Source: Thiohalobacter thiocyanaticus (GTDB lineage Bacteria > Pseudomonadota > Gammaproteobacteria > Thiohalobacterales > Thiohalobacteraceae). Taken from it: a stretch of DNA of 64,000 bases. The notes under the pieces are model-generated. The model had not been told where the DNA came from and made no database searches. It saw nothing but the letters and a program-made list of their open reading frames with translations. The translations under genes were made by a program, and so were the position numbers. Positions 6,850 to 57,192 of the stretch are shown here, piece by piece (positions within the stretch are counted from its first letter, which is position 1; the number at the start of each line of letters is the position of its first letter). The stretch covers positions 372,001-436,000 of the forward strand of contig NZ_AP018052.1 of NCBI RefSeq assembly GCF_002356355.1. The letters run 5' to 3'.

Positions 6850-9558
6850 ATGCCCAGTACCAAGCCGGTCGTCCTGGTGGACGGCTCCTCCTATCTCTAC
6901 CGGGCCTTCCACGCCCTGCCGCCGCTGACCAATTCCCGCGGCGAGCCCACCGGGGCGGTCTATGGTGTGGTCAACATGCTCAAGCGCCTGCTCAAGGACT
7001 ATCAGCCCGAGCACGTGGCGGTGGTGTTCGATGCCAGAGGCAAAACCTTCCGCGATGAGATGTTCGAGCACTACAAGGCCAACCGCCCGCCCATGCCGGA
7101 GGAACTGGCCGCCCAGATCGAGCCGCTGCACGCCCTCGTCCGGGCGCTGGGCTTTCCGGTGCTGCAGGTCCCGGGCGTGGAGGCGGACGATGTTATCGGC
7201 ACCCTGGCCCGGCAGGCCGACGCCCGCGGCGAGCCGGTGCTGATCTCCACCGGCGACAAGGACATGGCCCAACTCGTCGAAGGCGGCATCACCCTGGTCA
7301 ACACCATGAGCAACACCACCCTGGACCGCGCCGGCGTGGTTGAGAAGTTCGGCGTGCCGCCGGAGCGCATCGTCGACTACCTGGCCCTGGTCGGCGACAG
7401 TTCGGACAACATCCCCGGGGTGCCGAAGGTCGGCCCCAAGACCGCGGCCAAGTGGTTGAACGAGTACGGCTCGTTGGATGCGCTGATCGAGCAGGCCGAA
7501 TCGGTCAAGGGCAAGGTCGGCGAGAGCCTGCGTGAGAACCTGGCGCAGCTGGATCTGTCGCGCCAGCTCGCCACCATCCGCTGCGACCTGGAGCTGGAGC
7601 AGGACGTCGACGCCCTGGCCATGCAGCCGCCGGACCGCGCGGCGCTCAAGGCACTCTACGAGCAGATGGAGTTCCGCACCTGGCTGAAGGAGATCCTGGG
7701 CAGCGACGAGTCCGCACAGGCGTCGGAGACGGCCGCGCCGCCCGCCGCCGAGGTCGACTACGAGACCGTGCTGACGCAGACGCAGCTCGACGCCTGGCTG
7801 AAGGAACTGGAGCAGGCCGATCATTTCGCCTTCGATACCGAGACCACCAGCCTGGAATACATGCAGGCCGAAATCGTCGGCCTGTCCTTCGCCGTGGAGA
7901 CGCACCGGGCCGCCTATGTGCCCCTGGCCCACGACTATGCCGGCGCGCCGGAACAGCTCGACCGCGACCGGGTGCTCAAGCAGTTCAGGAAACTGTTGGA
8001 GGACAAGGCACCGAAGAAGATCGGTCACAACCTCAAGTACGACATGAGCGTGCTGGCCAATCACGGCATCGAGCTCAGGGGCATCGCCTTCGACACCATG
8101 CTGGAATCCTATGTGCTGGACAGCACCGCCAGCCGCCACGATATGGATTCCCTGGCGCTGAAATACCTGGCGCACAAATGCACCAGCTACGAGGAGGTCG
8201 CCGGCAAGGGGGCGAAGCAGCTCAGCTTCAACGAGGTCCCCGTCGAGGCCGCCGCGCCCTATGCTGCCGAGGATGCCGACATCACCCTGCGTCTGCACCA
8301 GACCCTGTGGCCGCGGCTGCAACAGGAGAAGACGCTGGAGGGCGTATTCAATGACATCGATCTGCCGCTGGTGCCGGTGCTGTCGCGGATGGAACGCAAT
8401 GGTGTGAAGGTCGACCGCGACATGCTGGCGACCCAGAGCGGGGAACTGGCGCAGAAGATGGCCGAAATCGAGGAGGCCGCGTTCCAGGAAGCCGGTCAGC
8501 CGTTCAACATCGGCTCGCCCAAGCAGATCCAGGAAATCCTGTTCGATCAGCAGGGCCTGCCGGTCCTGGCCAAGACGCCCAAGGGCGCGCCCTCCACCGC
8601 GGAAAGCGTACTGGCCGAACTGGCGCTGGACTATCGTCTGCCGCGGCTGATCCTGGACTACCGCAGCCTGAGCAAGCTCAAGTCCACCTACACCGACAAG
8701 CTGCCCGAACGCATCGATGCCCGCACCGGGCGGGTGCATACCTCGTATCACCAGGCGGTGGCCGCCACTGGCCGGCTGTCCTCCACCGAGCCCAATCTGC
8801 AGAACATCCCGGTGCGCACTGAGTCCGGCCGGCGCATCCGCCAGGCCTTCATTGCCGAGCAGGGCTATCGCATCCTGGCCGCGGACTACTCCCAGATCGA
8901 GCTGCGCATCATGGCGCATCTGTCCGGCGACGAGGGGCTGCTCGCGGCCTTCGCCGCCGGCGAGGACATCCACCGCGCCACCGCGGCCGAGGTGTTCGGC
9001 GCGCAGCCGGACCAGGTCACGAGCGAGCAGCGGCGCAGCGCCAAGGCGATCAACTTCGGCCTGATCTACGGCATGTCGGCCTTCGGCCTGGCGAAACAGC
9101 TGGGCATCGAGCGTGGCGCGGCGCAGGAATACGTGGATCTGTACTTCGCCCGCTATCCGGGTGTGAAGGCGTACATGGACCGCACCCGCGAGCAGGCCCA
9201 TGACCAGGGTTATGTGGAGACCCTGTTCGGCCGGCGCCTGTACCTGCCCGAGATCAACGCCCGCAACCACCAGCGTCGCACCGCGGCCGAACGCACCGCC
9301 ATCAACGCCCCCATGCAGGGGACGGCCGCCGACATCATCAAGCTGGCCATGATCAGCACCGACGCCTGGATCCGCAGCGGCGGGCTGGACCTGCGCATGG
9401 TGATGCAGGTCCACGACGAGCTGGTGTTCGAGGTGGCGGCAGGCGATGTCGAGGCGGCGCAGGCGGCCATCCGCGAGCGCATGCAGACCGCGGCCGAGCT
9501 GGCCATTCCGCTGGAGGTCGAGGTAGGGGTCGGTGCCAACTGGGACGAGGCCCACTGA
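6850..9558 (+). CDS. polA: DNA polymerase I
   Basis: Replication and repair polymerase that removes RNA primers and fills gaps. All three functional regions are present in 902 residues. The N-terminal 5' nuclease begins [16 protein letters not shown] and contains VEADDVIG and [10 protein letters not shown]. The 3'-5' exonuclease has its DxE motif intact (FAFDTETT), so proofreading should be active. The polymerase domain shows motif A (DYSQIELRI), motif B ([14 protein letters not shown]) and motif C (QVHDELVFE). The length matches the E. coli enzyme. It starts at an ATG 8 bases after a purine-rich AAGGA. Downstream lies a probable small RNA and then engB on the opposite strand. Confidence 0.98.
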
Positions 9559-9616
9559 CAGCGGGCGGGCGCCCGAAACCCATCAATCATGCAGGGTAAT
9601 CGCATGCGCCGGCATG

Positions 9617-9645
9617 GGAACTTTCCCGTTCATACCCGCATCCAA
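9617..9645 (+). promoter_or_regulatory. Sigma-E/AlgU-like promoter upstream of the polA-engB small RNA
   Basis: GGAACTT at 9617-9623 matches the -35 element recognised by extracytoplasmic sigma factors of the RpoE/AlgU group. It is followed after 17 bases by TCCAA (9641-9645), close to the -10 forms TCAAA and TCTGA. A transcript would start near 9651. The Pseudomonas sRNA at the equivalent locus, ErsA, is transcribed from a promoter of this class. The -10 is imperfect, so the assignment is a reasoned guess. Confidence 0.5.
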
Positions 9646-9650
9646 CAGTC

Positions 9651-9772
9651 AGGACAGATGGTTCAGGACGTCCGCTCTCCCTCCCTGGAGCGGGCCACTC
9701 CTCCACCCGGTACCCCATCCGGGTGACACCTTGCCCCGGCCGACTTCCCCCTTGCAGCCGGGGCGTTTTTTT
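9651..9772 (+). ncRNA. Candidate trans-acting sRNA at the Spot 42/ErsA locus
   Basis: About 122 nt between the sigma-E-like promoter and an intrinsic terminator. Three hairpins can be drawn. The first pairs CCGCTC (9672-9677) with GAGCGG (9688-9693) around the loop TCCCTCCCTG. The second pairs CACCCGG (9704-9710) with CCGGGTG (9719-9725) around TACCCCAT. The third is the terminator, with loop CGACTTCCCCCTTGCA. Every loop exposes a C-rich run able to pair with Shine-Dalgarno sequences, a design known from C-rich-loop sRNAs. The locus, between polA and engB, is that of Spot 42 in enterics and ErsA in Pseudomonas. No open frame with a ribosome site is convincing here. The exact 5' end is inferred. 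Confidence 0.65.
9733..9772 (+). terminator. Intrinsic terminator of the polA-engB sRNA
   Basis: A perfect 8-bp stem, GCCCCGGC (9733-9740) and GCCGGGGC (9757-9764), with a 16-base loop, followed by G and seven T. It would end both polA read-through and the sRNA. Confidence 0.85.
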
Positions 9773-9791
9773 GCCCGCTCCATCAGGATTC

Positions 9792-10066
9792 AAGAGCGCC
9801 ACGGAATACACGGAAAACACGGACAAGAAATAAAGCGGGCGTATTTGGTCCACTCAATCCTTGCATGTGTACCCGAGCCATATTCATGGCAACCAACAGG
9901 ATTTCTGTTAAATATTACCCACTGCGTCCTTCCCGCGAAGGCGGGAATCCAGGTGTTTCGGGGAGATAGATGCCCGCCGGAGCCTGTGCCGGCCGGTACG
10001 GGCATGCCGAATAAATCAAAGTCTTAAACACATTTCCGTGGCTTCCGTGTATTCCGTGGCGCTCTT
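9792..10066. repeat. Inverted-repeat pair, family E
   Basis: A 23-base arm at 9792-9814 beginning AAGAGCGCCACGGAATACAC is repeated as its exact reverse complement at 10044-10066, right up to the engB stop codon. Between the arms is a weaker palindromic segment near 9928-10000 that contains CCCGCGAAGGCGGGAATCC and resembles family F. No coding potential is evident in this 275-base stretch. Confidence 0.75.
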
Positions 10067-10663
10067 TTATCTTTCCAGCCAGGCGTCGAGCACGGCCCAG
10101 ACCTCCTCCAGCCCCTCCTTCTTCAGGGCCGAGAACAGCTGCACCGTGGCCGGCAGCCCCTCGGCCTCGAGTTGGCGGCGGACCTGCAGCAGGGCGGTCT
10201 TCGCCGCACCCCGCTTGAGCTTGTCGGCCTTGGTCAGCAGGACGTGCACCGCCAGTCCGGCCGCCCGCGCCCACTCCAGCAGCTGGTGGTCGTAATCGGT
10301 CAGCGGGTGGCGGATATCCATGAGCAGGATCAGTCCGGCCAGCGAACGGCGCTGCTCCAGGTAGGCGGCCAGGCTCTGCTGCCAGCGGGCCCGGGTCGCG
10401 CCCCCCACCTTGGCGTAGCCGTAGCCGGGCAGGTCGACCAGCCGGGCGGCGTCGTTGACCTGGAAGAAATTCAGCAGCTGGGTGCGCCCCGGGGTCTTGC
10501 TGGTCCGGGCCAGCGCCTTCTGGCCGGTGATGGCGTTCAGCGCGCTGGACTTGCCGGCATTGGAGCGGCCGGCAAAGGCCACCTCGCGGCCGCGATCGGG
10601 CGGGGCCTGGCGCGGCTCGGCGGCGCTGACCTGAAACCGGGTCTGGGTGTAGGGGTTGTGCAT
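10067..10663 (-). CDS. engB: Ribosome biogenesis GTPase EngB (YihA/YsxC)
   Basis: Essential small GTPase needed for large ribosomal subunit assembly. In 198 residues it shows the P-loop GRSNAGKSS, the G3 motif [10 protein letters not shown] and the G4 motif TKADK, in the usual order and spacing. The substrate-gripping segment [13 protein letters not shown] is the family's switch region. The start is the ATG of [10 protein letters not shown]; a longer in-frame reading crosses the promoter of the divergent cytochrome gene and is compositionally unlike a protein. Its 3' end abuts a repeat arm. Confidence 0.96.
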
Positions 10664-56736: not shown

Positions 56737-56764
56737 ATAAAAAACCCCGCCGGTTGGCGGGGTT
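56737..56764 (-). terminator. Intrinsic terminator of the cold-shock gene
   Basis: On the minus strand AACCCCGCC pairs with GGCGGGGTT around AACC, followed by a T-rich tract (plus-strand AATAAAAAA at 56737-56745). Confidence 0.85.
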
Positions 56765-56790
56765 TGGCATGCGCCGCAATGGTCCGGGAT

Positions 56791-56997
56791 TCAGCCCTGG
56801 GCCACCACGTTGGCAGCCTGCAGGCCCTTCGGCCCCTGCTCCACGTCGAAGCTGACGGCCTGGCCTTCGGCCAGGGTCTTGAAGCCACTGCCCTGAATCG
56901 CGGAGAAGTGCACGAACACGTCATCGCTGCCGTCTGCCGGCGAGATGAAGCCGTAACCCTTGGACTCGTTGAACCACTTAACAGTACCAGTACTCAT
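56791..56997 (-). CDS. Cold-shock protein (CspA family)
   Basis: A 68-residue nucleic-acid-binding OB-fold protein. RNP1 is KGYGFISP and RNP2 is VFVHFSAI, both intact. Family members act as RNA chaperones and are induced by cold or expressed constitutively. GAGGTAA lies about seven bases before the ATG. A long untranslated leader lies upstream, typical of cold-regulated csp messages. Confidence 0.96.
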
Positions 56998-57192
56998 GTA
57001 AATTACCTCAGTAAATCATGTTTCAAAATTGTGAATCTAATTGCAGGTCGAGAAAGGCAAGGTGCAGGAGTAACCAAGAGGGTGCTTCTGGATGACCTAA
57101 CGAACGTGCAACCAATTCTTTTCGTGGCCGCAGGATGGCGGTGCCCCCGGGCGACCACGCCCTGAAGTATACACGATTATCAAAAAATGCAA
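56998..57192 (-). promoter_or_regulatory. Promoter and long 5' untranslated leader of the cold-shock gene
   Basis: On the minus strand TTGCAT (57192-57187) and TATACT (57171-57166) form a sigma-70-like promoter with a 15-base spacer. The implied start near 57158 leaves a leader of about 160 bases without an open frame. E. coli cspA has a leader of similar length that acts as a temperature switch; the same mechanism is a guess here. Confidence 0.5.

Follow-up and report, generated by a model that had tools for sequence, protein, structure and literature searches.

A predicted polA-linked small RNA with three C-rich loops and a sigma-E-type promoter in Thiohalobacter thiocyanaticus, and its homologues in Gammaproteobacteria

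The window analysed here is a stretch of 64,000 nucleotides of the Thiohalobacter thiocyanaticus genome (contig NZ_AP018052.1, positions 372,001 to 436,000). It contains two convergent genes named by HMM: polA, encoding DNA polymerase I, on the forward strand (6850-9558), and engB/ysxC, encoding a GTPase, on the reverse strand (10067-10663, with the stop at 10067 and a start codon picked by eye). Beyond engB, apparent cytochrome c4, ResB, and ResC/CcsA genes can be recognized by eye among the ORFs. The predicted sRNA gene described below is located in the gap between polA and engB. The remainder of this gap is filled by a 37-nt inverted repeat (9787-9823 and 10035-10071), which overlaps the engB stop; its arms are 89% complementary and lie 211 nt apart. 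The repeat may be a mobile palindromic element, because an arm-like sequence is also found 3′ of the sRNA in two congeners (L002 and L003).

The predicted gene is on the forward strand. The sigma-E/AlgU-type promoter named in the first-pass annotation is present there letter for letter, with the −35 element GGAACTT at 9617-9623, the −10 element TCCAA at 9641-9645, and a spacer of 17 nt between them (within 9617-9645). Judging by the promoter spacing, transcription would probably start at about 9651, giving a short 5′ leader (9651-9669); the leader sequence ACAGATGGTT is retained in two congeners. Hairpin 1 (9670-9695) has the stem 9670-9677/9688-9695 and the loop TCCCTCCCTG at 9678-9687, and hairpin 2 (9704-9725) has the stem 9704-9710/9719-9725 and the loop TACCCCAT at 9711-9718. 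Hairpin 3 (9733-9772), with the stem 9733-9740/9757-9764 and the loop CGACTTCCCCCTTGCA at 9741-9756, is an intrinsic terminator ending in a run of seven T (9766-9772), and a terminator-like site was called at it. The earlier description of three stem-loops with C-rich loops, of which the third is a terminator with seven T, is exact to the base. The loops contain CCCTCCC, CCCC, and CCCCC, respectively. The predicted RNA (9651-9775) folds with −54.2 kcal/mol, compared with a mean of −43.4 kcal/mol for shuffled sequences (z −3.25), and none of the 200 shuffles is as good. A small ORF of 22 aa with an ATG at 9658 was rejected as unconserved; its frame and length differ in L002 and L003. When the window was scanned with Rfam, no family over threshold was found at the sRNA site; anti-hemB, sX13, and others align there with sub-threshold scores. 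Elsewhere in the window, a cspA thermoregulator RNA can be noted on the reverse strand (56737-57129; 89.6 bits, above the Rfam cut-off).

A DNA search of 56 relatives revealed homologues in eight genomes, including that of the window, and all but one belong to the same family. In the loci that were read, contig-end losses aside, a GGAAC box is followed by three hairpins, the stems of which differ while the loops are similar. A covariance model built from three congeneric sequences only (R1) was used to search 86 loci (598 kb), most of them picked for holding a polA relative, and yielded 55 matches with E values of at most 1, nearly all on the polA strand past the polA stop. The same RNA is recovered right after polA in most of the 86 loci. 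MAFFT alignments of diverse homologues were kept out of the models, with hairpins 2 and 3 misaligned in them.

The second covariance model, R2, was built from 42 R1 matches, with no Xanthomonadaceae in the seed. On whole genomes, R2 finds the sRNA in 144 of the 276 gammaproteobacterial genomes and in 115 of the 216 genera, mostly as one copy per genome and sometimes as tandem copies, up to four. The stems and C-rich loops, expected earlier in close relatives, are therefore conserved far beyond the genus. Here we take Betaproteobacteria to be inside the sampled class, as in GTDB. In a wider sample of the phylum, only five matching genomes came from outside the class (best E 3e-6, the others above 1e-4).

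Several features of individual loci can be noted. Rows of two to four copies with differing stems are found in G166 contig 33, G259 contig 8, L080, L043, L023, and L106; those of L080, L043, and L023 appear as tandem pairs among the R1 matches. In Halieaceae and related loci (L032, L045, L049, L056, L067, L068, and L073), the variant present has an additional hairpin (GTAGC..GCTAC) ahead of the others, and its loop 1 is often CTCCATG. A contig titled Nitrospira sp. (L039) carries a gammaproteobacterial-type polA with 72% identity to the window polA and is probably mis-binned.

Covariation in the stems was analyzed in 85 matches. Standard pairs occupy 95.5% of the cells, and changes on both sides occur in 21 of the 22 pairs, that is, in all 21 variable pairs; as the alignments were fitted to the model, this percentage and these pair counts are flattered. 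Two-sided changes are found in all eight pairs of hairpin 1, all seven pairs of hairpin 2, and six of the seven pairs of hairpin 3, the seventh being invariant. The covariation score is 0.662, compared with 0.167 for shuffled and at most 0.126 for slid controls, and the 42 seed sequences give the same picture. Model fitting does not account for the two-sided changes or for the independent genomic position. As for the loops, CUCCC is kept in loop 1 of 65 of the 85 matches, CCCC in loop 2 of 71, and CCCC in loop 3 of 58. Given that the stems vary while the loops stay constant, the loops are probably the working part of the molecule.

The sRNA sX13, which has three C-rich loops and is encoded downstream of polA, was described in Xanthomonas in 2013, and its loops were tested by mutation (PMC3771888). 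It consists of three stable hairpins with loops of 4C, 4C, and 5C, the last hairpin being the terminator; it is an independent transcript that acts in trans, is Hfq-independent, becomes more abundant in salt and at 37 °C, and represses mRNAs with G-rich 4G motifs via its C-rich loops (PMC3771888). With this precedent, the three-C-loop design is not new; in the first-pass annotation, in which sX13 is not named, it was said to look different from Spot 42. R2 finds the sX13 genes in register in three genomes (38.6, 38.4, and 35.3 bits), and all three follow polA. Conversely, the sX13 model (RF02232) gives 36-48 bits at R2 places, for example, in G166, G085, G133, and G220. The window RNA obtains 20.0 bits on this model over its full length, below the gathering cut-off of 50, and was therefore not classified as sX13. 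With the reciprocal profile matches, the homology of the window family to sX13 is well supported.

The gene neighborhood was counted at 66 loci from the genome-wide matches, including three sX13 loci and one ErsA locus. Convergent engB is downstream in 43 of them, cytochrome c4 is downstream in 39, and polA precedes the sRNA on the same strand in 41; at least one of the three genes is placed as in the window in 59, and some of these loci are short, so that polA may fall just outside. Copies without polA mostly still adjoin engB or cytochrome c4, which indicates that the sRNA is more than a polA tail. These counts bear on the explanation that the element is nothing but the terminator of polA plus two additional hairpins, or part of an mRNA 3′ end, and that no trans-acting RNA exists. 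Such an explanation agrees with a position 111 nt past the polA stop and with an end in a terminator. However, hairpins 1 and 2 covary, the C-rich loops are constant across the class, the element has its own promoter motif, copies exist without adjacent polA as well as in tandem, and the homologous sX13 is itself an independent trans-acting transcript (PMC3771888). We consider this explanation very improbable. The fold, the covariation, and the flanking polA and engB genes agree with the earlier proposal of an sRNA gene at the Spot 42/ErsA position, and the stretch 9617-9772, judged by this comparative sequence evidence, encodes a real small regulatory RNA.

The pattern GGAACTT-N15..18-TCNAA occurs once in the 64-kb window, compared with 0.03 expected. 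Upstream of the homologues, GAACT with a −10 element at fixed spacing was found in 66 of the 114 distinct upstream regions, while 200 rounds of dinucleotide shuffling gave a mean of 0.7 and a maximum of 4. The −35 and −10 boxes are conserved and the bases between them vary freely. The spacer is 16 nt in 57 of the 66 motif-bearing regions, the commonest −10 elements are TCATA and TCTTA, and the motif mostly lies 48-58 nt ahead of hairpin 1. The window promoter, with TCCAA and a spacer of 17 nt, is slightly off this family mode. The genome contains one RpoE above the curated cut-off, and an apparent RseA-type anti-sigma gene can be seen by eye downstream of rpoE. The motif count and the RpoE orthologue speak for the sigma-E/AlgU-type promoter proposed earlier ahead of the sRNA, and sigma-E control of the predicted sRNA can be inferred with good support.

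Alternatively, the RNA might be a structured member of this family that is constitutive or depends on another sigma factor, either as a housekeeping RNA or by processing of polA read-through, with GGAACTT being a relic or a secondary promoter. The strict pattern is absent from 48 of the 114 homologues, many of which have a near form, and the sX13 loci show only CGAACC..TTATA. In addition, sX13 is abundant in standard medium too (PMC3771888). On the other hand, chance would give 0.7 motifs rather than 66, their distance from hairpin 1 is near-constant, and no sigma-70-like site was found at 9300-10100. In many copies, engB or cytochrome c4 is the neighbor and polA is not directly upstream, and ErsA is sigma22-dependent. 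Taken together, this alternative seems unlikely.

The best reading, which we hold to be quite probable, is a sigma-E-dependent trans-acting sRNA of a polA-linked family that represses mRNAs by loop pairing. It is supported directly by the structure, its covariation, the locus, the conserved promoter motif, the loop conservation, and the sX13 homology; from these, transcription, sigma-E control, the pairing mechanism, and the targets are inferred. The intergenic gene would be transcribed by RpoE (sigma-E) from GGAACTT-17-TCCAA under envelope stress into a trans-acting small RNA of about 122 nt, and hairpin 3 with its seven T would terminate the transcript. Three rigid stems would expose the single-stranded C-rich loops, which, by analogy with sX13, may base-pair to G-rich segments in or close to the ribosome-binding sites of several mRNAs and reduce their translation. 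The earlier idea of repeated anti-Shine-Dalgarno loops is reasonable in this respect, but the pairing sites of sX13 are 4G motifs, which need not coincide with the Shine-Dalgarno site (PMC3771888).

Possible targets were searched for with loop 1. The 8-mer complementary to it occurs 2-10 nt before an ATG (CAGGGAGG-N2..10-ATG) at 30 sites of the genome, compared with three sites for the reversed pattern, a control that is blind to normal Shine-Dalgarno sites. About half of the 30 ATGs open a frame of at least 60 aa. The candidates include hflC, a CheW-like gene, a LuxR-type response regulator, and a gene whose product was recognized by eye as porin-like; all of them are candidates only, because the 8-mer shares sequence with the normal Shine-Dalgarno consensus. 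The match between loop 1 and the Shine-Dalgarno core is too general for target specificity to be read from the sequence. Hfq is present in the genome. The hfq gene was rejected as a conserved target of the kind known for sX13, with no GGGG within 50 bases on either side of its start.

Other known sRNAs were compared with the family. ErsA is a sigma22-dependent post-transcriptional regulator encoded in the polA-engB gap (PMC5819304, PMC8575079). At a Pseudomonas locus with 142.7 bits on the ErsA model (RF01719), R2 gives a weak match in register, with 25.3 bits (E 3e-4 for 90 kb of sequence); the match in another ErsA genome, with 25.2 bits, is equally weak. The ErsA model obtains 30-37 bits at R2 places, and the window RNA is not among its matches at E up to 5 (cut-off 50). 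Homology to ErsA is only suggestive on these scores. Anti-hemB corresponds to the expressed sRNA ncS04 of B. cenocepacia (PMC5688073). The window RNA obtains 28.2 bits on its model RF02837 (E 1.3e-4), below the cut-off of 49.5. Matches to this model, mostly at R2 coordinates, occur in 133 of the 276 genomes; the cut-off is passed by 15 of the 276 genomes and is attained by one polA-downstream locus. By the coincidence of the matches, the homology to anti-hemB is well supported. The window RNA would then be a member of a widespread polA-linked family to which sX13 also belongs, as do very probably anti-hemB and probably ErsA. Another RNA-like element, which also has a terminator and has a C/U-rich loop, is found in the genome of the window (G000:C1:633514-633613, or L239:1515-1614); its neighbors, named by eye, are an ECF sigma gene on one side and a PilT/PilU-like gene on the other. 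It obtains 23.8 bits on R2 and 30.9 on anti-hemB and is possibly a divergent paralogue of the sRNA.

The polA-engB slot is shared with Spot 42, and a sequence-diverged Spot 42 orthologue might be supposed there, the more so as R2 gives 13.6 bits at E. coli spf. Yet a neighboring stretch outside Spot 42 obtains 13.4 bits in the same test, and the Spot 42 model (RF00021) gives the window RNA 14.9 bits against a cut-off of 80 and has no match in the 276 genomes, with the E. coli control positive. On these scores Spot 42 was rejected as a relative, and we regard the orthologue as extremely unlikely.

The authors of the sX13 study noted a resemblance among polA-adjacent sRNAs of distant bacteria that lack similarity in sequence, and asked whether similarly acting sRNAs are encoded at other polA loci as well (PMC3771888). 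The first half of this question can be answered with yes: about half of the gammaproteobacterial genomes sampled contain a polA-linked sRNA, and a covarying structure and a sigma-E-like promoter are shared across the family. We lean towards the view that a single ancestral C-loop sRNA under sigma-E control, located beside polA/engB before gamma- and betaproteobacteria split, gave rise to ErsA, sX13, and anti-hemB in their separate lineages, and that about half of the class keeps a conserved envelope-stress sRNA unrecognized by Rfam as one family. A class-wide polA-linked family joining sX13, anti-hemB, and probably ErsA looks new; a literature search, without preprints and most subscription journals, found no paper that joins the three. 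Separate sRNA stories would merge into a single testable question, that of a common envelope-stress regulator, the findings on sX13 and ErsA could predict function in uncultured Gammaproteobacteria, and annotation pipelines would gain a family that is currently missed.

Like sX13, the window gene is directly downstream of polA, and its RNA has three C-loop hairpins, the last being a terminator. Unlike the CCCC of sX13, its loop 1 contains CCCTCCC, a variant of the 4C motif, and the promoter region of sX13 reads CGAACC..TTATA instead of GGAACTT..TCCAA. Hairpin 1 of the Burkholderia anti-hemB (CCGCU..CCUCCCUG..AGCGG) and its terminator are nearly as in the window RNA. In some strong matches (L153, L154, and L157), polA, engB, and cytochrome c4 are not adjacent. 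The window RNA shares with ErsA the polA-engB gap and an apparent AlgU/sigma-E-type promoter motif; however, ErsA uses an unpaired, U-rich domain located between SL1 and SL2, unlike the layout of the window RNA, and its effect on anr requires Hfq. Spot 42 of enteric bacteria and Vibrionaceae occupies the same slot, but their control probably differs: Spot 42 is under CRP control in E. coli, while the window RNA is preceded by a sigma-E-type promoter motif.
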